Of a stretch of 64,000 nucleotides of DNA, positions 2,617 through 35,943 are shown in pieces (positions within the stretch are counted from its first letter, which is position 1; each line of letters opens with the position of its first letter). Location: NCBI GenBank assembly GCA_018141845.1, contig CP073340.1:2009001-2073000 (forward strand), read 5' to 3'. This stretch comes from Lachnospiraceae bacterium oral taxon 096. Its GTDB lineage: Bacteria > Bacillota > Clostridia > Lachnospirales > Lachnospiraceae. The notes below the pieces were generated by a model that was not told where the DNA came from, did not search any database, and saw only the letters and a program-made list of their open reading frames with translations. A program made the translations under genes and the position numbers.

Positions 2617-3312
2617 CTAGACAGTTACCACTGTTCCATTTATTTTTCCTACCATTGCATTTGCAATGGAATTTTTCTCATTTAAATCAAATACTGCCAA
2701 TGGCATCTTATTTTCCATACACATTACAGTTGCTGTCAAATCTACAACTTGAAGTTTTTTGTCAAGCACTTCTTGAATGCTAATGGTCTCATACTTTTTC
2801 GCATTTGGATCAAGCTTTGGATCTGCAGTGTAGATGCCATCAATGCTCTTGGCTAAAAGAATCATTTCTGCATCAATCTCAATTGCCCGAAGAGCAATTC
2901 CTGTGTCTGTAGAAAAATATGGATGACCTGTTCCACCACCAAAGAACACAACCTTTCCCTGCTTAAAGCACTCATTGACCCTATCCTTTGAAAAAAGTTC
3001 AGTCATCGTTCCACAGGCAAATGGAGAGAAAATGGCTGTCTCCATTCCCTCGCTGCGAAAGATTTCTGACACATAGATGCAATTCATAATCGTTGCCAAC
3101 ATTCCAATTTGGTCTGCCTTTGTGCGGTCAATCGCCTCCGAAGTTCTTCCTCTCCAATAATTTCCACCGCCAATGACAATGCCAACTTCGACTCCCTGCT
3201 TTACACTGGCCAATACCTGCTGTGCAACATCTCGAACAGTGGCCTCATCATAGCCACTGCCTTTTCCTGCTGCAAGTGCTTCTCCACTCAATTTGAGCAT
3301 AACTCGCTTCAT
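2617..3312 (-). CDS. pyrH: UMP kinase
   Basis: This 231-residue bacterial UMP kinase of the amino acid kinase fold phosphorylates UMP to UDP. MLKLSGEAL at the N-terminus, the GGGNYWRGR loop and the DLTATVMCMENKMP region near the C-terminus are characteristic. It is the first gene of the minus-strand operon leading to frr, uppS, cdsA and dxr. The 5' flank at 3313-3410 is AT-rich and holds a TATACT-like -10 element near 3390. Confidence 0.96.
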   Translation of the reverse strand: MKRVMLKLSGEALAAGKGSGYDEATVRDVAQQVLASVKQGVEVGIVIGGGNYWRGRTSEAIDRTKADQIGMLATIMNCIYVSEIFRSEGMETAIFSPFACGTMTELFSKDRVNECFKQGKVVFFGGGTGHPYFSTDTGIALRAIEIDAEMILLAKSIDGIYTADPKLDPNAKKYETISIQEVLDKKLQVVDLTATVMCMENKMPLAVFDLNEKNSIANAMVGKINGTVVTV

Positions 3313-3461: not shown

Positions 3462-3903
3462 CTACACCTGAACAAATTTTCCATCATTCATTACATATTG
3501 TTTCTTACAATACTTTGCCACCTTTTCATCATGAGTGACAATCACCAAAGTCTTTCCCTCTCGATTTAATTCCATCAACAATGCCATAATGTCCTCTGTT
3601 GTCTTAGAGTCTAATGCCCCTGTCGGCTCGTCACAAAGCAGAATATCCGCATGATTGACTAAGGCTCTGGCAATGGCAACTCTTTGCTTTTGTCCTCCAG
3701 AAAGCTTTGCTGGCACAGCTTTTGCTCTATGCACAATTCCAAGCCTTTCCATCAACTTCATTGCTCGCTCTATCTTCTCCTTTTTGGACAATTTTGTATA
3801 TTCCAATGGCAACATTACATTTTTTAATGCACTATAGTGAGAGATAAGTGCAAAGTCTTGTACAACAAAACCAAATTTCTCATTGCGAAGTTTTGCCTTC
3901 TCC
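3462..3903 (-). pseudogene. ABC transporter ATPase, C-terminal fragment, separated by an IS607-type insertion
   Basis: This is the distal 146 codons of a MacB/LolD-type ATPase: Q-loop region (FGFVVQDF), signature LSGGQKQRVAIARAL, Walker B LLCDEPTGALD and H-loop VTHDE. Its own N-terminal part is at 5977-6208. The frame upstream of residue EKAKLRNE is element sequence, so any translation from an ATG inside the element would lack Walker A. Joining the two parts at the shared GG gives an uninterrupted 223-residue protein of normal family length. The split itself is direct sequence evidence; loss of function is inferred. Confidence 0.9.
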
Positions 3904-4110
3904 GTTACTGAAAACTTATAAAAAGCTAATAAACTTTTATGTTTCATTCCTACTTCATCGAGTATGCTTTCATACTGAATAAATTCAAATACTAATTACA
4001 AGTTCTTGTACTCTCCGTAGGCGTCAATTCCCGATTAACATTCGGTACATATCTGTAATAACTTTAAAGTGTTACACTACAGATTGTTTTAAAACATTCT
4101 CTCCATACTG
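3904..4110 (-). ncRNA. Candidate TnpB omega RNA (reRNA) at the right end of the IS607 element
   Basis: In IS605/IS607-type elements the TnpB guide RNA spans the 3' end of tnpB and the right end, with the guide taken from the flanking DNA. Here about 168 non-coding bases follow the tnpB stop and end exactly at the mapped junction at 3904. Short complementary segments such as ATGTACCGAATGTTAATCGG and TACGGAGAGTACAAG suggest folding. The guide would therefore read into the ATPase fragment starting GAGAAGGC. The RNA is inferred from family knowledge and position; the 5' end is a guess. Confidence 0.5.
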
Positions 4111-5247
4111 CTTTAGATTCAAACTTGCTTGAAAATCTCTATCTATGATGTTTCCACATTCACATTTATAAATTCTGTCAGACAGTTTCAAATCTTTTTT
4201 AATATTTCCACAACAACTACATAGTTTAGAACTTGGAAAGAATCTGTCTGCTATAATGACTGAAATATTATTCCAGTTAGACTTATACTCAATCTGCTTT
4301 CTAAATTCATAAAAGCATTGTTGTTGTACTGCTTTGGATAAATGCTTATTTTTCATCATTCCACTTACATTCAAATCTTCCATACAGATAAAACTTGGTT
4401 TTCGCTTTATGATTTCAGATGTTGTCTGATGTAAGTAGTTTTGACGAATATTTGTTAATCGTTTTATTACTTTTAAAAGTTCTTTTTCTCTTTTTATTAT
4501 GTTACTTGTTTTACAATAACTGCCTCCTTTCTTATTTTTCTCATATCTTCTTGATATTGAACGCTGTAACCTGCGTTTTTTCTTTTCTATTTTTCTTACT
4601 TTTTGTGTTTTATTTATGTTCTTATAAGTATTTCCATCAGAACAAACTGCTAAGTTTTTAATACCTACATCAATTCCGACACCATCATTTGATGGAAGAT
4701 TATTATTGTCATCTACTTCAATTCCAATGGATACATACCAATACAATCCATCATATGTAAAGCGTGGATTTAAGTATTTACAGTTCATTGGTATTCTTTC
4801 TTTTTCACAAAGTCTAATCCAATTCAATTTTTGTTTATTTCGTCTTTTACTCATTGAAAATCCTTCTACTTTTACATGAGTATCTGTAAACTGAATTTTA
4901 CCAGTATCTTGATAAAAAGAAGGAGTTGAATGCTTTTTACTTTTAAATTTAGGATATTTGCATTGCCCTTTGAAAAATTTTTTATAGGCATTACAAGCAT
5001 CTTTGATTGCTTGCTTTGTTACATTATTACTTACTTCATTTAACCATCTATACTCTGGCAGTTTCTTTAGCTGTGTAAATTCTTTTCGTAATTCATTATC
5101 CGATAAGAATTTATTTTTTTGCTTATCGTTCTCTTGTTCCTTTGCAATAGCCCAATTGTAAGCAAATCTCGCACATCCAGCATATTGAAATAGTTTAGTA
5201 ATCTGTTTATTATTTGGGTATAGTCTGATTTTTATTGATTTTATCAT
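4072..5247 (-). CDS. tnpB: TnpB RNA-guided endonuclease of the IS607 element
   Basis: This 391-residue TnpB has the N-terminal OrfB helix-turn-helix region (KIRLYPNNKQITKLFQYAG), then RuvC-I with Asp193 in GVGIDVGIKNLA, RuvC-II with Glu290 in FICMEDLNVSGM, a four-Cys zinc ribbon (Cys343, Cys346, Cys362, Cys364) and RuvC-III with DRD at 369-371. All catalytic positions are intact, so it should be an active omega-RNA-guided DNA nuclease, known in this family to bias retention of the element. The ATG overlaps the tnpA stop by four bases. The gene is AT-rich compared with core neighbours. Confidence 0.95.
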   Translation of the reverse strand: MIKSIKIRLYPNNKQITKLFQYAGCARFAYNWAIAKEQENDKQKNKFLSDNELRKEFTQLKKLPEYRWLNEVSNNVTKQAIKDACNAYKKFFKGQCKYPKFKSKKHSTPSFYQDTGKIQFTDTHVKVEGFSMSKRRNKQKLNWIRLCEKERIPMNCKYLNPRFTYDGLYWYVSIGIEVDDNNNLPSNDGVGIDVGIKNLAVCSDGNTYKNINKTQKVRKIEKKKRRLQRSISRRYEKNKKGGSYCKTSNIIKREKELLKVIKRLTNIRQNYLHQTTSEIIKRKPSFICMEDLNVSGMMKNKHLSKAVQQQCFYEFRKQIEYKSNWNNISVIIADRFFPSSKLCSCCGNIKKDLKLSDRIYKCECGNIIDRDFQASLNLKQYGENVLKQSVV

Positions 5248-5861
5248 TTTTCACTGTCAACCTCAATTAATTCATTTACTAATTTTCTAGCTTTATTAGC
5301 ACGTTTGCCTTGTAATTTACAACTAAAAACTGTGATAATTTGAACTAAATCTTCTACAAGCTCTTGCTGTTCTGGTTTTTCTGTATTATCAATTATTTCT
5401 ATGTCACAATTATATAAACTTGCAACATATTCAACGAATTCAAATCCAAATCTTAGTAGTCTGTCTTTGTAAAGAACTACAACTTTTTCCACTTTATTTT
5501 GAGATATACGTTTAATTAATTCTCTTAAACCCTTTTTCTTATAATTAATTCCAGAACCTATATCCGAAATTATTTCATAAGGTTTCCCTTGAGCATTTAG
5601 ATACAGCTTCATATTCTCTATTTGTCTTTCTAAATCATCTTTTTGTTTATTGCTTGAAACTCTGCAATATCCAATGACAATTCTATTCAAATCAGATTTT
5701 ATATTCATAACCTGATTTAATTGTTCATGAGAATAATATCTGTATCCATTACTAGACACATGATGTGGATGAAGTTTACCGTTTGCATCCCAATTTCTAA
5801 GTGTTTGGGCTGATACTCCTAAAATTCTTGAAAATTCTCTGATAGAATAGTATTTACTCAT
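5244..5861 (-). CDS. tnpA: IS607-family serine recombinase (transposase TnpA)
   Basis: This 205-residue protein has a MerR-like winged HTH at residues 1-50 (SIREFSRILGVSAQTLRNWD) followed by a resolvase catalytic domain with the nucleophile Ser69 in IVIGYCRVSSN. The DNA-binding domain lies in front of the catalytic domain, the order typical of IS607 rather than of resolvases. KDRLLRFGFEF carries the conserved Arg residues. The length and residues suggest an active enzyme. A strong GGAGG lies about 17 bases before the ATG, an unusually long spacing. Confidence 0.94.
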   Translation of the reverse strand: MSKYYSIREFSRILGVSAQTLRNWDANGKLHPHHVSSNGYRYYSHEQLNQVMNIKSDLNRIVIGYCRVSSNKQKDDLERQIENMKLYLNAQGKPYEIISDIGSGINYKKKGLRELIKRISQNKVEKVVVLYKDRLLRFGFEFVEYVASLYNCDIEIIDNTEKPEQQELVEDLVQIITVFSCKLQGKRANKARKLVNELIEVDSEK

Positions 5862-5976
5862 AATTAAAGTTCTTAAAGCCTCCTTTTCAATATTTATATT
5901 TTATTCTATCATTAAAACTTATAAAAATCAACACATATTTATAATTTTTTTATAAATTACTCTTAACAGTTGTTAG

Positions 5977-6208
5977 CCTTCATGGAATACTCCGCAATAT
6001 TCTTACCAAAAAGATGATAGTCCCCTTCTGTGGCAACATCTAAAATCCCAAGAATATTGAGCAATGTACTCTTTCCCGATCCAGATGTTCCCATAATGGC
6101 AACACTCTCTCCACGCTCAATCTGCAAAGACACATGATCCAAGGCATATACTGGCTCATCTTCTCCATATATCTTGCATATATTGTTTAGTTCAATGATT
6201 TTATCCAT
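5977..6208 (-). pseudogene. ABC transporter ATPase, N-terminal fragment
   Basis: This is the first 77 codons of a MacB/LolD-type ATPase with A-loop region and Walker A ([16 protein letters not shown]). It then runs into the IS607 element and stops after AN-N-C encoded by the element. The ATG overlaps the stop of the upstream permease (TAATG), so the pair was translationally coupled. Without the signature and Walker B it cannot hydrolyse ATP. The distal half is at 3462-3903. Confidence 0.92.
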
Positions 6209-7165
6209 TATCTCACTCCTCGCAATGTATCTGTCAATTTTTCAAATTGAATCTTGTGTATCATATAAAGGAACAAAATAATAAAACATCCCAGACATAT
6301 CAATACTGGCAATAGCAAAAATTCACTTATGCCACACAGGATGGTTGTTACCAATAAGCTCAATACAATCAACAAAAGATTTTCGATAAAAACTCTCCCC
6401 CAAATATCTGTTATCCTTGCCCCACATAACAAGTTAATTCTATACTCGTAGGCACATTCAGACACACGGCGAATCACCAAACAAATCATACTGACAAAAG
6501 AAAAGATCAATAAAATGCTACCAAACAAACTATATAAAATCATGGTTTCTACATAGTCATTTTCTATAACTTTAATCTGAGAGCTATAATTCACAAAATA
6601 TCCATCTGTTACTTTCTGTTGGCGCATTACATTTCTGATTTCTTTCAATTCCTTTTCATTATTGACATATAATTGACAGGAATACATTGCTTGATCCATA
6701 CCATAAACAGAACTCTTATCTACATTCACGGGTATAATTACACTTTTATCCAAAGAAAATGGCTCTTTTTGTTGAGTTGGTCGAACAAATCTTGCTCCCT
6801 TTTTCAGGAAAGCCTCGATCTGAATTTTCCGCTACATTTTCACCTTCAACATAATCTTTTATAGCAGAATTGATCTTTAATGCACAAAATAGCTCTTGAT
6901 CAAATTTGGCCACACTTGGTGTCCAAGATCCAAAAGAAATTATGCAATGTGGAACTTGCAAGAGATTGATCTTATCCAAAATCGTCTCGATAGTAGGATG
7001 TTCCTCTGAAAATTGGATACTCCAGTAATCATCTAACAATATCCCATAGTCCTTTTCTGGTTCATGCCACACCTTTGACATTGCTGAAAATCCCAGTGAA
7101 AATGTAAACAAACTCATCACCATAATGAGCCATAACATCTTGGCCTTTAAAATTGTATCTCTCAT
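6208..7165 (-). pseudogene. FtsX/MacB-like ABC permease with frameshift
   Basis: Two overlapping frames make up one permease. The first has an N-terminal membrane segment (WLIMVMSLFTFSLGF) and part of an extracytoplasmic domain. The second has the rest and three C-terminal membrane segments with the cytoplasmic loop RRVSECAYEYRINLLCGA that contacts the ATPase in this family. In the second frame the sequence reads sensibly upstream as IEAFLKKGARFVRPTQQKE, placing the shift near 6820-6835 at a short A-tract. A restored protein would be about 318 residues. A consensus-like promoter at 7200-7229 is still present. It pairs with the disrupted ATPase, so the whole transporter appears to be decaying. 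Confidence 0.8.
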
Positions 7166-7229: not shown

Positions 7230-7295
7230 CATTTAATATATATATCTATTAGTATTATGATTCTTTTTTACACTTTTTATGGTTACAAAATAACG

Positions 7296-7332
7296 AAAAG
7301 GACTGCAAAAATTCCCTTTTCGCAGTCCTTTT
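7296..7332. terminator. Terminator after the ABC exporter operon
   Basis: AAAAGGACTGC and GCAGTCCTTTT form an 11-bp stem with A-tract and T-tract on the two sides, so it can work in both directions. It lies six bases beyond the stop of the second exporter gene. Confidence 0.85.
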
Positions 7333-7337
7333 CTATT

Positions 7338-9236
7338 CTATTCTCCCAAGCCATTGCCTGTATATAGCTCGTAATATTTTCCTTTCTGATCGAGCAACTC
7401 ATCATGAGTGCCACGCTCAATAATTCTTCCTTGCTCCAGTACCATAATGCAATCTGCATTTTTAACTGTAGAAAGGCGATGGGCAATGACAAAGGTTGTT
7501 CTTCCTATCATCAAAGAGTCCATTCCCGTTTGTACAAGTTGCTCTGTTCTTGTATCAATGGATGATGTCGCCTCGTCAAGAATCAGGGCTGGCGGATCGG
7601 CAACGGCGGCCCTTGCAATGGCCAGAAGCTGGCGCTGACCTTGAGAAAGACTTCCGCCCTCCCCATTAATTATGGTGTCATAGCCACTTGGCAACTTTTC
7701 AATAAAGTCCGATGCGTTGGCAAGTCTTGCCGCCGCCATACATTCTCCATCCGTTGCCCCCTCTCGACCATAGCGAATATTTTCCATAATACTTCCTGTA
7801 AACAGTCTGGTCTCCTGCAGTACAATACCCAAACTCTTTCTTAAATCTGCCTTCTTGATATTAGAAATATTAATTCCATCATAGCGGATTTCTCCCTTTT
7901 GAATATCATAGAAGCGATTGATCAAATTGGTAATGGTCGTCTTTCCTGCACCAGTTGAACCGACAAACGCAACCTTTTGTCCCTTTTTGGCAAAGAGATT
8001 GATGTCATGCAATACCATTTTCTTGTCTGTATATCCAAAGGTGACATCATCAAGAACAACATCGCCCTCCATCAAGGTATAAACTGGCTGATTGGTCTTT
8101 GGATCAATATCCTTCCAAGCCCATTGTTCGGTTCTCTCATCCGTCTCTGTAATATTTCCAAATTCATCGACATCGGCATTGACCAAAGTCACATAGCCCT
8201 CATCAAGCTCTGGTACACTGTCCATCACCTCATAGATGCGGTCAGCTCCGGCCACAGCCATGGCAATCGCATTGATTTGCTGAGAAATCTGTGCAAACGG
8301 CTGATTAAATCCCTTAACTAAGGTAAGAAATGCCACAAGTGTTCCTAGGGTAACACCAAATTTCCCATTAATGGCAATCACTGCACCGATAATCGCACAG
8401 ATAACATAATTCATATTTCCTAGCTGTGCCACAACTGGCATAAGAATGTTAGCAAAGGCATTGGCCTGATAAGCACTGTCTCGAAGTTCTTCATTGAGTT
8501 TTTGAAATCCCTCAATCGACTCCTCTTCGTGGTTAAAAACCTTAATTACCTTTTGTCCACTCATCATTTCTTCAATATATCCATTTAACTTACCAAGACT
8601 TTGCTGTTGACGAATAAAATGTTTTCCTGAACTATCTGCAATTTTCTTACTTGTAAAGAGCATCACCGCAACCAAAATCATGGCAATAATGGTCAATGGA
8701 ATGGAAAGAATGCACATGGTCACAAACATACTTGCAATCATCATTGCTGAATTGATTATCTGTGGAAATGCCTGTCCAATAAATTGACGGAGAGTATCGG
8801 TATCATTGGTGTACACCGACATAATATCACCATGAGAATGGGTATCAAAATATTTGATTGGCAATTTTTCCATGTGACTAAAAAGATTTTCTCTCACACG
8901 GCGCATCGTTCCCTGACCGACATTGACCATAATTCTTTGATACATATAAGAACATCCTGCACCGATCAAATAGACAATCACAATCTGTGTCATTGCCTTG
9001 GCCAGCGGTCCAAAATCAGGTGATGAACGACCAATCATTGGCGTGATATACTTGTCAATTAATGTCTGCATAAAGGCCGTTCCACGCACATTGGCAATGG
9101 CCGATACAATAATACCAATAAATACAAATACCATATGAATGCCATAGTGCTGAAATACAAGTTGCACAATACGCTTCATATTTCTTGACTGCATACCTTT
9201 TGCAGCCTGCTTTGCCTCTTTTATTTTATCTTCCAT
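7338..9236 (-). CDS. ABC exporter half-transporter with canonical nucleotide site
   Basis: This 632-residue protein has an N-terminal six-helix exporter domain (roughly residues 30-340) and a C-terminal ATPase. The ATPase shows Walker A GSTGAGKTT, signature LSQGQRQLLAIARA, Walker B LILDEATSSID with the catalytic Glu, and the H-loop IAHRLS. An insert of about 60 residues lies in the linker between the domains. The start follows directly on the stop of the upstream ABC gene (TAAATG), so the two very likely form a heterodimer of the YheI/YheH, LmrCD type. Substrate is unknown; drugs or peptides are usual for the family. A MarR gene leads the operon. Confidence 0.92.
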   Translation of the reverse strand: MEDKIKEAKQAAKGMQSRNMKRIVQLVFQHYGIHMVFVFIGIIVSAIANVRGTAFMQTLIDKYITPMIGRSSPDFGPLAKAMTQIVIVYLIGAGCSYMYQRIMVNVGQGTMRRVRENLFSHMEKLPIKYFDTHSHGDIMSVYTNDTDTLRQFIGQAFPQIINSAMMIASMFVTMCILSIPLTIIAMILVAVMLFTSKKIADSSGKHFIRQQQSLGKLNGYIEEMMSGQKVIKVFNHEEESIEGFQKLNEELRDSAYQANAFANILMPVVAQLGNMNYVICAIIGAVIAINGKFGVTLGTLVAFLTLVKGFNQPFAQISQQINAIAMAVAGADRIYEVMDSVPELDEGYVTLVNADVDEFGNITETDERTEQWAWKDIDPKTNQPVYTLMEGDVVLDDVTFGYTDKKMVLHDINLFAKKGQKVAFVGSTGAGKTTITNLINRFYDIQKGEIRYDGINISNIKKADLRKSLGIVLQETRLFTGSIMENIRYGREGATDGECMAAARLANASDFIEKLPSGYDTIINGEGGSLSQGQRQLLAIARAAVADPPALILDEATSSIDTRTEQLVQTGMDSLMIGRTTFVIAHRLSTVKNADCIMVLEQGRIIERGTHDELLDQKGKYYELYTGNGLGE

Positions 9237-29129: not shown

Positions 29130-30008
29130 ATGGAATTAAAATGTCCACTTACAATAGAGCAACAATTAGAAAAATTAAAATCACATAACATCATCATAGA
29201 TGATATGAATGAAGCAAGAAATTTTTTACAACAAGTCAGTTATTACCGTATTACAGGCTATATATTACAATTTAGGGAAAGCCCATCAAATAGTGATATA
29301 GTATTAGGTCATAAATTATCTGAAATACAAAAATTATATGTGTTTGACGCTGAACTTAGATCGCTACTCCGACACTATATTGAAATAAATGAGGTGTATT
29401 ATAAATCTCATATATCTAACATATTCACATTAGAAAAGTGCACACTCTCACCACATAACCAGCACTATAGTGAAGATAACTATTATGACAAAAATGGATT
29501 TAAAAAAATTATAGAACGATTCGAAAAAGAAGAACAATACTACGCCGACAGTTTAATTGTTAAACATCATAAACAAACTTATGAAAATAAAATGCCGCTA
29601 TGGGTGATGTTTGAGTTCATGTCTTTTTCTAGTGTATCTATGTTATATAATGCAATGTATATTAGCTCTAAAGAAAATATAGCTCGCCCCCTTGGAATTG
29701 GACATAAAACGCTATCAAATCATCTACATTGCATGTCGATACTTCGAAATAAGTGTGCTCATGCTGCTAGACTAATTAACATACATTATAATCCACCTGT
29801 TAAGCTATCACAGAAATTCTTAAGGGACAATCCAAGTGTCAAAAATGATTCTCTATTCGCATACATTAAGGTCTTAATACAAAGATTACCATCAGATAAT
29901 CTGAGAAGCGAACTAAAAGATAAATTATCTCAATTAATTGAAAAACACATAGAGATTGTTGATTTATCCATTATAGGATTTCCAGTTAATTATAAAAGTC
30001 TTTTGTGA
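29130..30008 (+). CDS. Abi_2 (AbiD/AbiF-like) HEPN abortive infection protein
   Basis: This 292-residue protein has the Abi_2 pattern: LTIEQQLEKLKSHNIIIDD, the YYRITGYILQF block at about 38-48, the IQKLYVFDAELRSLL block, and the HEPN catalytic motif RNKCAH (Arg206, His211, RxxxxH). HEPN proteins of this type are RNases that stop growth after phage infection. The AbiF branch is proposed to be related to the ancestor of Cas13. The gene is AT-rich, lies within a prophage remnant, has its own promoter, and follows a structured terminator RNA. All motif residues are intact, so it is probably functional. Confidence 0.85.
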   Translation: MELKCPLTIEQQLEKLKSHNIIIDDMNEARNFLQQVSYYRITGYILQFRESPSNSDIVLGHKLSEIQKLYVFDAELRSLLRHYIEINEVYYKSHISNIFTLEKCTLSPHNQHYSEDNYYDKNGFKKIIERFEKEEQYYADSLIVKHHKQTYENKMPLWVMFEFMSFSSVSMLYNAMYISSKENIARPLGIGHKTLSNHLHCMSILRNKCAHAARLINIHYNPPVKLSQKFLRDNPSVKNDSLFAYIKVLIQRLPSDNLRSELKDKLSQLIEKHIEIVDLSIIGFPVNYKSLL

Positions 30009-31940: not shown

Positions 31941-31968
31941 AAGAGGGGGAGGCTCCCCCTCTTCCATT
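31938..31968. terminator. Bidirectional terminator between upp and the GTPase operon
   Basis: AAAGAGGGGGA and TCCCCCTCTT form an approximately ten-base stem with a short loop between two convergent genes. Confidence 0.8.
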
Positions 31969-31970
31969 TA

Positions 31971-32705
31971 TTATTCCTTATCCTCTATCTGATTTATAAT
32001 CGTTTGTGTCAGTGCTGGCTGGTTTGGAGCTGCTGGCTGAAAATACTTGGTAGCAATTCCTGTAATCTCTCTCATCTGCTCGTCAATCATTTTCAATAAA
32101 TTTTCTGTATCTCTATTTAACATTTGTTGAAACTCTCTAGTCTGTTGCACGATATCATTCATCTGAGTCTTAATTTCATCTTTTATGATATCATCTCCTT
32201 CTCCTCCAGGAAATATATCTTTTATAGCTTTTACATCTTCATAGAGCTGTTTTTTATGCTCATTTTGTATAGCAAGATACTCCTTAGTCTTCTCTATATA
32301 CAAATCCTCAACTTGCTTTCTAACTTCTGCTTGTGTACTTGCCATGAATCTTGCCAATTTCCCTGCTGATTCAGACATCTCAATACGAAAATTCTTTTCA
32401 ATTTGAGCCAATTTCTCTTTATACTGAAGATCACTATCTTTAAGCATTTTATCAATTTCTATTTGCATTCTCTGTTCTTCAGCAGACAGCTTCTGTTCTC
32501 TGTCCTTTCGCTCAAGCTCCATCTCCATTTGGAATCTTTCCATATCCTTTTGAAGCTCCAATTCGTGCTCTTTATTCTTCTTGTCCCTATTATCATCACA
32601 TTGCTTCAATGGTTGCCTTAGTGCATCACACATCAAATGAATTGGCTCATAAATAATATCATCAATTTTATCAAGCATACCTAAAAAATCAGATTTTTTT
32701 CCCAT
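31971..32705 (-). CDS. Coiled-coil protein, last gene of the GTPase operon
   Basis: I do not recognise this 244-residue protein. Residues about 45-105 are almost entirely charged heptad-like helix (EHELELQKDMERFQMEME, EQRMQIEIDKMLKD), followed by more helix and a Pro/Gln-rich tail (FQPAAPNQPALTQ). No signal peptide or membrane segment is visible. It overlaps the preceding gene by 17 bases. Composition suggests an elongated scaffold or filament-like partner of the GTPase encoded at the operon head; this is inference. Confidence 0.8.
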   Translation of the reverse strand: MGKKSDFLGMLDKIDDIIYEPIHLMCDALRQPLKQCDDNRDKKNKEHELELQKDMERFQMEMELERKDREQKLSAEEQRMQIEIDKMLKDSDLQYKEKLAQIEKNFRIEMSESAGKLARFMASTQAEVRKQVEDLYIEKTKEYLAIQNEHKKQLYEDVKAIKDIFPGGEGDDIIKDEIKTQMNDIVQQTREFQQMLNRDTENLLKMIDEQMREITGIATKYFQPAAPNQPALTQTIINQIEDKE

Positions 32706-33174
32706 CTTTATATCGTCCCTCCCTAATTTCTTCTATTTTTTTCTCACGTTCCTTCTTCCCTTTTTTAAAGAAAACACTCATTCTCTTCTTTTTTTCTTCC
32801 CAATTATTACTCACATCTATAATATCTCTCAATATCTTTGTTCTTTCTTCAACGAAATTTATTTCAAACTCTTCATAACCCCATTTTTTAAGGAATGCCC
32901 CATACCATTGAATAAACATTGATAGACATCTCTTCCTTTCTCTCTCTGAAAACGAATAGCTATTGATCTTATCCTCAATATTTTTCCAATGTAGTTCCAA
33001 CCACATCAATTCTTGTAGCTGTAGTTTTGTTTCAAATAATACCTTCCTGTTTATCCCATCATATAGTGCATCATACAACTCCGAAGCATTATCACTCAAA
33101 ATGTCATTAATCAAAACACTTCTACACTCCTTGGCAATATTCATAAACTCTAAATACGGAAAACTACTGTTCAT
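32689..33174 (-). CDS. Helical protein of the GTPase operon
   Basis: This 161-residue protein of no recognised family is predicted to be almost fully helical, with a basic C-terminal tail (KKRMSVFFKKGKKEREKKIE). No catalytic motif, signal peptide or membrane segment is seen. It follows the 129-codon gene after 11 bases and overlaps the next gene by 17, so it is embedded in the operon. The tail could bind nucleic acid or membrane surfaces, but nothing specific supports either. Confidence 0.75.
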   Translation of the reverse strand: MNSSFPYLEFMNIAKECRSVLINDILSDNASELYDALYDGINRKVLFETKLQLQELMWLELHWKNIEDKINSYSFSERERKRCLSMFIQWYGAFLKKWGYEEFEINFVEERTKILRDIIDVSNNWEEKKKRMSVFFKKGKKEREKKIEEIREGRYKDGKKI

Positions 33175-33185
33175 TCTCTTATCCC

Positions 33186-33575
33186 CTACGACTTATCTAG
33201 CTTTTCTTTTACCTCATTTTTAAACTCATCAATTGTCTTTACAACATAATCATTAATCAATGTTTCACTGAGTGAAAAGCTCTTGTCCATATTATCCACA
33301 AATCGCTTCATCCAAACTTTTCTTGTATCATCATCAATAGCCTTTTCACCATTTAGCTTAGCAATAATCTTTGGCAACACAATATCATAAAATTCTTTCT
33401 GCTCTTTTCTAAATTCCATTAACTGTTTTGACACAAACTCTATTTCTGAACTATACTTTCTCACTAAGTCCATATAATGCTTTTCATAATCATAGAGTAC
33501 CTGTATTGACTTATCTTTCTTACTTACCGGTATATCTTCAAAATTGCTAAAACAATCTTCATTCTCAATGGTCAT
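33186..33575 (-). CDS. Small helical protein of the GTPase operon
   Basis: This 129-residue protein of unknown family is acidic at the N-terminus (MTIENEDCFSNFEDIPVSKK) and then entirely helical (DLVRKYSSEIEFVSKQLMEF and KEFYDIVLPKIIAKLNGEK). It starts immediately after the stop of the preceding small frame (TAAATG), so translation is coupled. No membrane segments or catalytic signature. Confidence 0.75.
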   Translation of the reverse strand: MTIENEDCFSNFEDIPVSKKDKSIQVLYDYEKHYMDLVRKYSSEIEFVSKQLMEFRKEQKEFYDIVLPKIIAKLNGEKAIDDDTRKVWMKRFVDNMDKSFSLSETLINDYVVKTIDEFKNEVKEKLDKS

Positions 33576-33773
33576 TTACCCTATCCCCTTTCTTTTTATT
33601 GTTTTTTTTATTAAATTTCTAATTTCTCCTTTTTTACTGGTACAGGGTATTATTTCAATAGTTACTCCATCTTCACTACGACAAAAATGACATTTACACT
33701 TTCGTCTTCCTTCTGCAGTTTCTGCAATAATTAATAAGTATCCATTTTCAGCATCAAGACCAATACCAGACAA
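33576..33773 (-). CDS. Small Cys-containing frame overlapping the membrane protein gene
   Basis: This 65-codon frame has a TTG start at best and no clear ribosome binding site. It contains a Cys cluster (KCKCHFCRSEDG) and a basic tail (NLIKKTIKRKGIG). It overlaps the end of the 276-codon gene by 43 bases. The same frame stays open upstream to the A10 tract at 33818-33827, so a -1 slip there would fuse it to the first 248 residues of that protein in place of its membrane helix, giving about 328 residues. It may therefore be the 3' part of a slippage product or of a recently frameshifted gene. Confidence 0.5.
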   Translation of the reverse strand: MSGIGLDAENGYLLIIAETAEGRRKCKCHFCRSEDGVTIEIIPCTSKKGEIRNLIKKTIKRKGIG

Positions 33774-34561
33774 AAAATCACTGAAATCACTACCAAAATG
33801 ATATTCTGCTTTTTTACTTTTTTTTTTCTTTCGTCTGTACTCTCTCTGTCATCGTTACTACAAACATCTATACTTTCTTCTCTTTTTTCTCCTCCTTTCT
33901 TTTCCTTTGTGATTCTTTCAATATTGTTAGATTTCGTTGTCACATAATCAAATGCTCCTTCTTCTACTAATTTCCAACTTGTAATATTACTACAAAATGA
34001 AAAATTTTCTCGTTTCCCATCACACATTAATCGAGCAAACTCTTCTTTATCTAACTTAGAATTTGCTTCTAAATATTTTTCAATATCTGACTTGGCAACA
34101 CTATCACTATTAACCTGTATTTCTTTAAATTTACTAGATTCACTCCCTTGATGCTTTTTTTCCCAAATATTCTCCACTTCCTTTACATAGACTTCCCACA
34201 AAGTCGAAATATCTATGTCTCCATACTCATTATTATCCTCCTTGTCAATAACAACTCCTACAAATGCAAATGTTCTTCTTCCTCTATTATCTAAAAAGAA
34301 CTTCTCAAATTTTCCCTTTTCTCCTTTTGCCTCACAACATATGTCCTCTAAAAATCCTACTACACCTGCTAGTCTATACTTACCATTATCTACAATAAGC
34401 CAACGAAACCCTTGTAAAGAATCTATATCCTCTGTCGCCTTTAAAATATTTTCTCTAGCCCACTTAATATTATCACTGTTAAATCTCTCTGGTCGTACCA
34501 AAAATTCTGCATTAAAATCACAATTAAGTGTTCTAGAATGTATAATCGGTGCTACTTTCAT
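33731..34561 (-). CDS. Membrane-anchored protein of the GTPase operon
   Basis: This 276-residue protein of no recognised family has a globular N-terminal part (VAPIIHSRTLNCDFNAEFLV, then FRWLIVDNGKYRLAGVVGFL), a central helical stretch, a Lys-rich segment at 245-251 and a C-terminal membrane helix (253-271, rich in Val, Ile and Leu). Topology would be a cytoplasmic domain with a tail anchor. The A10 tract just before the helix could produce a version without the anchor. It follows the GTPase gene by 20 bases. Confidence 0.78.
   Translation of the reverse strand: MKVAPIIHSRTLNCDFNAEFLVRPERFNSDNIKWARENILKATEDIDSLQGFRWLIVDNGKYRLAGVVGFLEDICCEAKGEKGKFEKFFLDNRGRRTFAFVGVVIDKEDNNEYGDIDISTLWEVYVKEVENIWEKKHQGSESSKFKEIQVNSDSVAKSDIEKYLEANSKLDKEEFARLMCDGKRENFSFCSNITSWKLVEEGAFDYVTTKSNNIERITKEKKGGEKREESIDVCSNDDRESTDERKKKVKKQNIILVVISVIFCLVLVLMLKMDTY
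33818..33827 (-). other. A10 tract, candidate slippage site
   Basis: Ten consecutive A on the coding strand are followed by GT and, three bases on, another run of six A. Slipping to the -1 frame opens a frame that runs through the downstream small ORF to its stop at 33576. Such long A-tracts favour transcriptional slippage in AT-rich bacteria. Confidence 0.5.
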
Positions 34562-34581
34562 TTTGCTGTACTCCTCCTCAT

Positions 34582-35637
34582 CTATACAGAAATATTTTTC
34601 TGCTGATACTCAAGCCATTTAGAAATATCTCTTTTCTCTCCATCAATGTAAATGTTTTTAATCCTCTTCAACACTTCTAACATATTCTGCAAATACATCT
34701 GCATAGATTCTTTTTCTGTATTCTTGGCATTTATCTTATCAACCAAAGACTTTTTCTGTCCTGATAACTGAGCCATCTCCCCTTTTCTTTTAAAAATTCT
34801 ATTTTTCTCTTTGAGCAGTTTCGAATCCAATTTTGAAAGTTCTTGTTCATTCTTCCTAATCTCTAAAATTATATTACGGATCTTCTTAATTAGAGCAACA
34901 TATATCGACATAAAGATTGGAAGTTCTATATTTATAGGTTCTATTTTCATCTCCCCTATAGAATTCTTATCTATACAAACTGGAATAATTGTTACAACCT
35001 TTTCCACATCATTTTTTACAAAAAAAGGTGTAAATGCCTTCTTTATAATTTCATATATCATATCCTTGTTCATAAATCCCATGCACAGATCATATTTTGT
35101 AATAACAATCTCTGTCAGCGGTATAGCTTTATTATTATTTGCATAATCACTAAAAAAGGTATTAATCACATTGCTACATTCACTCTTTATATTTTGTACT
35201 ATTTTGTCTATCTCTACTTCCCCATCCTTGCTCTTCTCTTTACTAAACAAAGTTCCATCCACACAAATAATCAAACTGCTTGAACCTTGAATTGATTTCT
35301 TTACCTTCTCATATTCTTCAATATTTCCACTATTTTTTCTATTTAACAAACCTCCAGGATAATCAATCCAATCAAAATCCATAATTTTTCTAAATCCATA
35401 ATCTAAATTAAATGTATATGACTTTGATGTATCCGTTCCTGCTGGAAATCTCCTCTCTCTAGGTAATGTTGGGTCATCAAACCTAGCATAATAATCTCTA
35501 AGTTGTACATCTGTATCTTCATCTGTCGTAATTGTATAACCTGCTTTTCCAGCACCCATCATATAGTAAAGGCTCAATAAATAACAGGTCTTTCCAGCAC
35601 CAGACATTCCTAAAATTGTAATTGTTGTATCCGCCAT
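34582..35637 (-). CDS. P-loop GTPase with C-terminal coiled coil, head of an unrecognised operon
   Basis: This 351-residue protein has G-domain motifs in order: Walker A/G1 GMSGAGKT (10-17), G3-like DYPGG (92-96) and G4-like TKYD (180-183). Residues about 255-325 form a coiled coil and no membrane span is seen. The TRAFAC-like pattern with DxPGG and TKxD is reminiscent of GTPases in bacterial conflict systems, but I cannot assign a named family. A GAGGAGATAGGA site precedes the ATG. It leads five more genes and is controlled from a palindromic promoter opposite a small HTH gene. Confidence 0.85.
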   Translation of the reverse strand: MADTTITILGMSGAGKTCYLLSLYYMMGAGKAGYTITTDEDTDVQLRDYYARFDDPTLPRERRFPAGTDTSKSYTFNLDYGFRKIMDFDWIDYPGGLLNRKNSGNIEEYEKVKKSIQGSSSLIICVDGTLFSKEKSKDGEVEIDKIVQNIKSECSNVINTFFSDYANNNKAIPLTEIVITKYDLCMGFMNKDMIYEIIKKAFTPFFVKNDVEKVVTIIPVCIDKNSIGEMKIEPINIELPIFMSIYVALIKKIRNIILEIRKNEQELSKLDSKLLKEKNRIFKRKGEMAQLSGQKKSLVDKINAKNTEKESMQMYLQNMLEVLKRIKNIYIDGEKRDISKWLEYQQKNISV

Positions 35638-35671
35638 AGTTCCTATCTCCTCTATGTTTATATGCTACTTT

Positions 35672-35699
35672 CAGTATACTGAATATATTCAGAATATTC
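35672..35699. promoter_or_regulatory. Nested palindromes: likely operator between the GTPase operon and the HTH gene
   Basis: Three overlapping perfect palindromes lie in 28 bases: CAGTATACTG (35672-35681), CTGAATATATTCAG (35679-35692) and GAATATTC (35692-35699). The central one occupies the spacer of the operon promoter. A dimeric HTH protein, most simply the product of the divergent gene at 35743, would cover the promoter. Confidence 0.75.
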
Positions 35700-35703
35700 A
35701 AGT
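35675..35703 (-). promoter_or_regulatory. Promoter of the GTPase operon
   Basis: On the minus strand TTGAAT (35698-35703), 17 bases, TATACT (35675-35680). The start of the GTPase is about 40 bases downstream. The spacer contains the 14-base palindrome. Confidence 0.65.
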
Positions 35704-35742
35704 AGATTTTCCTTTTGTAATCTTTTTATAGGAGGAGAAACA

Positions 35743-35943
35743 ATGTTCAATTATTCACCACTTTGGAAGACGATGAAAGAAAAAGAATTCTCGACATACA
35801 GATTACTAAAGGAAGGTCTCGACAGAAAAATTCTATTTAATTTACAACATAATAAAAATGTAACTATCCTTACACTCGAAAAGCTATGTACTATTCTTGA
35901 TTGTAAAATCGAAGATGTAGCAGAAATTATAGTTGACAAATAA
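35743..35943 (+). CDS. Small Xre-family HTH regulator
   Basis: This 66-residue protein consists of one Cro/CI-type HTH domain (STYRLLKEGLDRKILFNLQH, then TLEKLCTILDCKIEDVAEII, the usual ending of compact Xre proteins). A strong AGGAGGAG site lies seven bases before the ATG. It is divergent from the GTPase operon across a set of palindromes and is its probable repressor. It has its own strong terminator. The assignment as regulator of that operon is inferred from position. Confidence 0.85.
   Translation: MFNYSPLWKTMKEKEFSTYRLLKEGLDRKILFNLQHNKNVTILTLEKLCTILDCKIEDVAEIIVDK

Follow-up and report, generated by a model that had tools for sequence, protein, structure and literature searches.

A compact operon of six reading frames lies on the minus strand of a 64-kb stretch of the genome of Lachnospiraceae bacterium oral taxon 096 (contig CP073340.1, forward-strand positions 2,009,001 to 2,073,000); this whole stretch is called the window below. 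The operon is composed of two separable modules. The core is formed by a GTPase gene (G1) and the gene of its membrane-anchored partner (G2), and the triad by three genes (G4, G5 and G6) that also occur without the core, carried by small plasmids and by a phage-like contig. The intergenic gaps from G1 to G6 are 20, -43, 0, 11 and -17 bases. The frames are as follows.

34582-35637, minus strand: G1, 351 amino acids, GTPase of the DO-GTPase2 superfamily with the P-loop GMSGAGKT, an ITKYD motif and a C-terminal coiled-coil-like region
33731-34561, minus strand: G2, 276 amino acids, partner protein of a family without a name, with one C-terminal transmembrane helix
33576-33773, minus strand: G3, 65 amino acids, frame with a cysteine cluster and a TTG start, doubtful gene
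33186-33575, minus strand: G4, 129 amino acids, small and presumably helical, first gene of the triad
32689-33174, minus strand: G5, 161 amino acids, presumably helical, second gene of the triad, with relatives recognized by position and weak profile matches
31971-32705, minus strand: G6, 244 amino acids, third gene of the triad, N-terminal amphipathic segment and a long charged coiled-coil-like stretch

This anatomy agrees with the original prediction, made from the DNA letters alone, in the six frames and their spacing, in the P-loop GTPase (which matches PF19993), in the tail-anchored second protein and in the lack of recognized families among the accessory proteins. However, the GTPase can be assigned to a published superfamily, and the set of six genes stands only in part: five frames have relatives elsewhere, whereas G3 is doubtful. 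No Shine-Dalgarno-like sequence was seen by eye upstream of G3, while each of the other five frames has one, and there is no convincing G3 relative at the matching position in genome G482, where the gene order recurs. Probably, G3 is not a dependable member of the operon.

Proteins of the operon other than G1 have no convincing match in Pfam, PADLOC, NCBIfam or PHROGs. Only weak P-loop and coiled-coil matches were produced by PADLOC 2.0.0 on the operon proteins (LmuB, 0.0078; ZorA, 0.024). A sequence search of solved structures in PDB gave nothing convincing for G1, G2 or G4, the best match of G1 being a weak P-loop match to a GPN-loop GTPase (0.0014).

The GTPase and its partner

On sequence grounds, G1 belongs to the DO-GTPase superfamily, named by Kaur et al. 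(2020, PMC7159879). The consulted sections of that paper describe systems of a DO-GTPase with GAP1, nearly absent from cyanobacteria, and predict a role of the superfamily in conflict. The match of G1 itself to PF19993 (DO-GTPase2) is borderline: 8.2e-6 and 26.1 bits at a cut-off of 27, and, in a whole-genome search, 3.9e-6 and 26.8 bits, or 27.4 bits, above the cut-off, with neighbours in frame. All 17 GTPase homologues match PF19993 at E values of at most 1 (best 2.9e-15), and ten of them also match PF19975. An unannotated phage record from human faeces (MT835574.1:6120-6575) weakly matches residues 6-142 of G1 (5e-4, 39% of the GTPase).

The partner family (17 proteins of 257-486 amino acids) has a single conserved N-terminal domain. 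In the numbering of G2, the invariant positions of this domain are R10, D15, P24, R53, R95, F100 and W133; T11, T43, G66, D91, G102 and, further along, C190 are nearly invariant. The conserved pattern is IHxRT...D, GRxxxxFxG, W, C. No Pfam family covers this domain; on G2, the member for which match positions are given, the Pfam matches are confined to residues 223-270, around the C-terminal membrane helix, whose mean hydropathy over 19 residues is 3.21.

A GTPase gene of the window type directly precedes a partner gene in all 11 distinct loci (the window operon, L005, L006, L014, L015, L017, L018, L019, L021, L022 and L023), a rate that is not free of bias, as it is co-occurrence among finds made through either gene, with the window-type GTPase, where several are present, assigned by us from alignment identity. 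Locus L019, in genome G482, starts inside the GTPase gene, and only the C-terminus of the latter is on the contig (profile match 6e-4); G2 is 26% identical to the partner encoded there. With a 19-residue hydropathy cut-off of 1.6, which was our choice, each of the 11 loci encodes exactly one transmembrane partner: the sole partner in five loci and one of the two partners in the remaining six. The presence of exactly one at each locus suggests that a complex requires one membrane anchor.

The core is rare. The genus sample consists of the host genome alone. With G1 as the query, matches turned up in 3 of 397 genomes of the family sample, and with the partner alignment in 5 of 392 genomes of the order sample, the host being included in both counts. 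One of the five (G623) is a weak fragment (5.6e-4, model positions 201-285, four internal stops) and was rejected as a chance match. In the phylum sample the only genome with the core, out of 398, is the host, and the core is present in 3 of the 24 genomes of family f2. When genome contigs were scanned with the partner alignment, 80 candidate stretches yielded four loci (L013 and L016 coincide with L006 and L005, respectively), and the same scan with the single G1 sequence found nothing. Among 72,556 plasmid records, the GTPase occurs on three cyanobacterial plasmids only, each of which also has the partner; by tblastn, G2 finds one of them and the Calothrix partner all three. Viral contigs scanned with the GTPase gave no match. 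In the partner scan, viral contig L020 was matched at the transmembrane end only and was likewise discarded as due to chance.

The neighbours of the core change from locus to locus. L014 has an AAA+ ATPase, a protein read as membrane-bound and a coil protein that matches HTH_17 below threshold, and the neighbours in L005 and L015 resemble these by their translations. In L006 (Anaeromicropila populeti), the core is directly followed by genes of a protein with three EF-hand stretches and of a radical SAM protein (4618-6497). The core of L021 (Anabaena sp. 90 plasmid pANA01) is accompanied by Hsp70, a C39 peptidase and dynamins, and those of L022 and L023 by AAA proteins; dynamins stand beside the core, or on its plasmid, for two cyanobacterial cores. 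On Geminocystis plasmid pGM01 (L023/L036) the core is found together with an annotated anti-phage dCTP deaminase, a dGTPase, a DUF1156 protein, toxin genes and a reverse transcriptase. By analogy, an unvarying switch in differing gene neighbourhoods is in keeping with a conflict system, and the consulted part of PMC7159879 argues that a constant core with variable neighbours is a sign of such a role for DO-GTPase systems.

Two further observations concern the proteins of these loci. A 100-residue protein in the L014 core cluster (7264-7566) matches the Death domain below threshold (0.0021). On pANA01, the C-terminal dipeptide WF ends 4 of the 89 annotated proteins, and all four are encoded in the five-gene core cluster (Hsp70, partner 1, GTPase 1 and partner 2, not GTPase 2); the hypergeometric probability of 2e-6 was calculated after the pattern had been noticed. 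Similar-looking tails (DIWEL, DVWDL, SIWDF, GDIWSI, YIEL/LIEL) occur at several other core loci, not in the window operon, but a looser tail pattern also picked five pANA01 proteins outside the core, so that specificity is limited to the strict WF ending. A shared tail of this kind is a possible docking motif.

The G4-G5-G6 triad

The arrangement G1-G2-x-G4-G5-G6 is found again in genome G482 of another family, where the contig includes just the end of G1. In L019, G4, G5 and G6 occupy positions 1870-2241, 2824-3303 and 3530-4282, respectively, and are followed by genes that we take to be rplM and rpsI. The interval 2260-2824 of L019 holds a decayed tandem copy of part of G4 and G5. The window G4 is 45% identical to the G482 protein, a higher value than the 26% of the partner, and about 30% identical to proteins of enterobacterial plasmids. 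Proteins matching G4 are encoded on 18 plasmid records (best 2e-10) and proteins matching G6 on 12 (1e-3); G5 has no plasmid match by tblastn.

ColE-like plasmids of E. coli and Salmonella contain the genes in the order G4-G5-G6, the last two overlapping as they do in the window operon. On plasmid p3 of Azospirillum sp. TSA2s, the order is rearranged to G6-G4-G5. An IMG/VR contig, of which 9.7 of 15.9 kb were seen, ends with G4-G5-G6 and also carries repressor-like, cytosine methyltransferase-like and replication-like genes, as read from the translations. Scans of viral contigs with four-row alignments of G6 and of G4 both led to this one contig, and a scan with a two-row G4 alignment gave no match. 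Profiles of the GTPase and the partner find nothing in the E. coli/Salmonella, Azospirillum and IMG/VR stretches containing the triad.

Homology of the triads was assessed with profiles built from the two clostridial copies only, and hence not circular, run over 5670 frames. They find the distant G4 genes at 4e-19 to 8e-15 and the distant G6 genes at 2e-24 to 3e-22. Its coiled coil makes false matches of G6 more likely; however, a chance match is unlikely because the G6 matches are full-length and in order with G4 and G5. For G5, the reverse search finds the G482 copy at 2e-7 and the window copy at 8.5e-4; hhalign gives 57% with an E value of 1e-4. The G5 genes in position are the best foreign matches, the next, unrelated frames being at 0.69 and 0.36.

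Among 5426 E. coli genomes, the triad was found in 15 (in ten of them with at least 80% of the cassette in one place), and all 23 places are on plasmids, none on a chromosome; this count comes from a DNA search requiring high identity, and several records are cut at the start. On plasmids pSe-Kan, pSBardo-Kan and pO111-110512_6, the homologues of G4, G5 and G6 are the genes that the consulted part of PMC9282650 reports as '3 ORFs of unknown function'. They have the same order and low G+C as in the window operon, but no GTPase or partner gene adjoins them. The triad proteins of the plasmids, including that of Azospirillum, belong to no convincing PADLOC or Pfam family; their best PADLOC match, to a type I methyltransferase model, is at 1.1e-4, and the following ones are at 0.0059 or weaker.

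The modules are also separable within the core-bearing genomes. Of the six searched, two have G6 and the other four show none, one of these four (G549) being 76% complete. G4 occurs in one of the 391 genomes of the class sample, the host, and in one of the 24 genomes of f2, namely G482. In the order sample, G6 was matched in 3 of 176 genomes and is full-length in two, both with the core; the third match (G422), 48 positions inside a frame of 1130 amino acids, was rejected as a chance coiled-coil match. Joint conservation of the gene set, which the original prediction had suggested as a check, holds for the order in G482, but the set consists of two modules and not of one unit.

Control region and surroundings

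Upstream of G1 the following features were found, together with one site at the other end of the operon.

35670-35683 and 35679-35692: two overlapping palindromes, both perfect and of 14 bp, probable operator
35673-35701, minus strand: promoter-like site for the operon, TTGAAT-17-TATACT, overlapping the palindromes
35743-35943, plus strand: Cro/C1-type regulator of the HTH_26 family, 66 amino acids, divergent from the operon (Pfam 2.1e-9)
31941-31963, between upp and the operon: hairpin resembling an intrinsic terminator

The entire window contains six perfect palindromes of at least 14 bp, and two of them are at the operon promoter. In a simulation of the 105-bp intergenic region, at least one such palindrome occurs with P = 0.016 and at least two with P = 0.00035. 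The promoter scan returned 17 sites with 18.4 expected by chance, and thus the promoter-like site alone is weak evidence. The overlap of the palindromes with the promoter-like site fits autoregulation by the divergent HTH_26 protein, which may bind the palindromes. Seven terminator-like sites, overlapping forms of the single hairpin at 31941-31963, were found versus 1.3 expected.

The G+C content of the operon is 31.8%, versus 38.8% for the window. Equally low values are seen in 4 of 240 overlapping 4-kb windows, which may include those over the operon itself. A low-G+C AbiD/Abi_2 gene (29130-30008; PADLOC 5.4e-71) lies nearby. It encodes an unrelated protein, is separated from the operon by other genes and is on the opposite strand, and there is no sign that it belongs to the operon. 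The segment 29130-30317, comprising this gene, a short frame and an overlapping tRNA-Leu, is a possible remnant of an integrated element; the short frame presumably resembles the end of an integrase. A second AT-rich stretch, of 28-29% G+C, is situated at 4001-6000 of the window. The divergent helix-turn-helix gene, the palindromes at the promoter, the AT-rich block and the nearby defence gene had all been pointed out in the original prediction and are present.

Proposed function and alternative explanations

We consider the chances about even that the operon is a conflict system of mobile and modular make-up, with phages or other invading DNA as its most likely target. The surroundings agree with a defence reading, as proposed earlier: the AbiD gene, the plasmid and phage-like relatives of the triad and the defence genes of the Geminocystis plasmid; defence itself is a reading of sequence data. 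None of the findings suggests that these are housekeeping genes, or that they form a gas-vesicle, secretion or phage structural operon.

The system might work as follows. The HTH_26 protein would bind the two overlapping palindromes and keep expression low. Judging from what is known of its family, G1 would be a nucleotide-controlled switch. Through its C-terminal helix, G2 would keep the complex at the inner membrane, and its conserved N-terminal domain would couple the GTPase to the output. The latter would be provided by the triad as an interchangeable module, in which the amphipathic N-terminus of G6 touches the membrane, its long coiled coil forms a scaffold, and G4 and G5 are small helical adaptors. 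One guess is that a phage-caused disturbance of the membrane or of GTP is the trigger, whereupon the GTPase would let the triad assemble at the membrane, stopping growth or blocking the invader. On plasmids and phage-like DNA, the triad alone would have to act without the GTPase switch.

A more specific version is somewhat less probable and is offered tentatively. The triad would be an autonomous anti-invader system of small mobilizable plasmids and phage-like DNA, which in Clostridia has come under a new class of DO-GTPase switch. This switch, a GTPase with a membrane-anchored IHxRT partner, would also serve other outputs in cyanobacteria and Lachnospiraceae, and components of some relatives would share a C-terminal docking tail.

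Several points weigh against a conflict function. No effector enzyme or pore could be recognized in the operon with Pfam or PADLOC, nor any effector domain common to other conflict systems. GTP binding and hydrolysis by G1 are predicted, and the link between the palindromes and the regulator is drawn from their arrangement. A conserved Walker B glutamate is given as a mark of DO-GTPases in the consulted part of PMC7159879. However, no glutamate is invariant in the 17-row GTPase alignment, where D92 and G95 are, as judged without a DO-GTPase reference alignment to place the glutamate. The homology of G5 is weak, the clostridial profile giving 0.006 to 0.04. G4 and the E. coli G6 find no match in 50,697 phage records. 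Finally, the triad could be a function of plasmid or prophage maintenance or of exclusion.

The main rival to a conflict role is membrane stress, which we regard as rather unlikely. Under this explanation, the GTPase and the anchor control a protective coiled-coil scaffold of the PspA or dynamin type in an envelope-maintenance machine, and no invader is specifically sensed. The membrane-anchored partner is in line with such a machine, and so is G6, with an amphipathic N-terminus, as read from the hydrophobic moment only and with no shuffled control, followed by the charged coiled-coil-like stretch. We take this layout to resemble PspA/ESCRT-III-like or dynamin-like scaffolds, but the likeness is one of layout only: G6 as a PspA-like protein was rejected, as there is no PspA match in Pfam, and the PDB search with G6 found nothing significant (best 0.055 and 0.071). 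The Azospirillum G6 shows a weak match to a dynamin-like helical domain at 0.0065, its 16.2 bits falling short of the 25.5 required, and dynamins accompany the two cyanobacterial cores mentioned above. DO-GTPases beside psp operons, with a predicted role in membrane stress, are reported in the consulted part of PMC11237479. On the other hand, the distribution is sparse and plasmid- and phage-like.

It is improbable that the triad is a selfish-element function, such as superinfection or entry exclusion or maintenance, captured beside an unrelated GTPase pair in a chance neighbourhood. The core is missing beside the triad on the ColE-like plasmids and on the Azospirillum plasmid and IMG/VR contig stretches, and G6 was not seen in four of the six core-bearing genomes. 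However, two genomes from different families have the core and the triad side by side on one strand with the same gene order, and in the class sample for G4, as in the order sample for full-length G6, the triad genes always occur with the core.

Equally improbable is a diverged DO-GTPase/GAP1 system, in which G2 is a GAP1 protein that drifted beyond sequence recognition. The GTPase superfamily (PF19993/PF19975) is common to both, as is a constant core of GTPase and partner with variable neighbours and membrane-linked components; some relatives have GTPase pairs, Hsp70 and membrane segments, as in GAP1-N2 systems. However, the partner is not recognizable as GAP1, an identity rejected at the sequence level: a Pfam scan of the 17 partner proteins at E values up to 10 showed no GAP1 model among the 25 families listed of the 32 matched. 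The partner has one conserved N-terminal domain and not three. GAP1-M was not found in the host genome, the six operon proteins have no GASH (N1 type) or FNIII (N2 type) match in Pfam at E values of at most 1, and no zinc ribbon is matched on the GTPase. The variable part here is a helical triad, and the core is found on plasmids of cyanobacteria, from which GTPase-centric systems are reported to be nearly absent (PMC7159879, in the consulted part). As the partner cannot be recognized as GAP1 and is carried by cyanobacterial plasmids, we do not file the system under DO-GTPase/GAP1; from its sequences, we treat it as probably working like a DO-GTPase conflict system outside that class.

Judged from searches of the literature and of family libraries, the partner family and the triad look undescribed. 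Nothing resembling the triad was found in the searched text of Vassallo 2022 (PMC9519451), and a literature search by six protein accessions returned no mention. If the conflict reading is true, the operon would represent a further class of predicted DO-GTPase conflict systems, with a partner family of its own. It would also mean that a DO-GTPase switch can combine with a ready-made mobile output cassette. At the same time, the triad gives a first clue to three genes of ColE-like plasmids of enterobacteria that lack an assignment.

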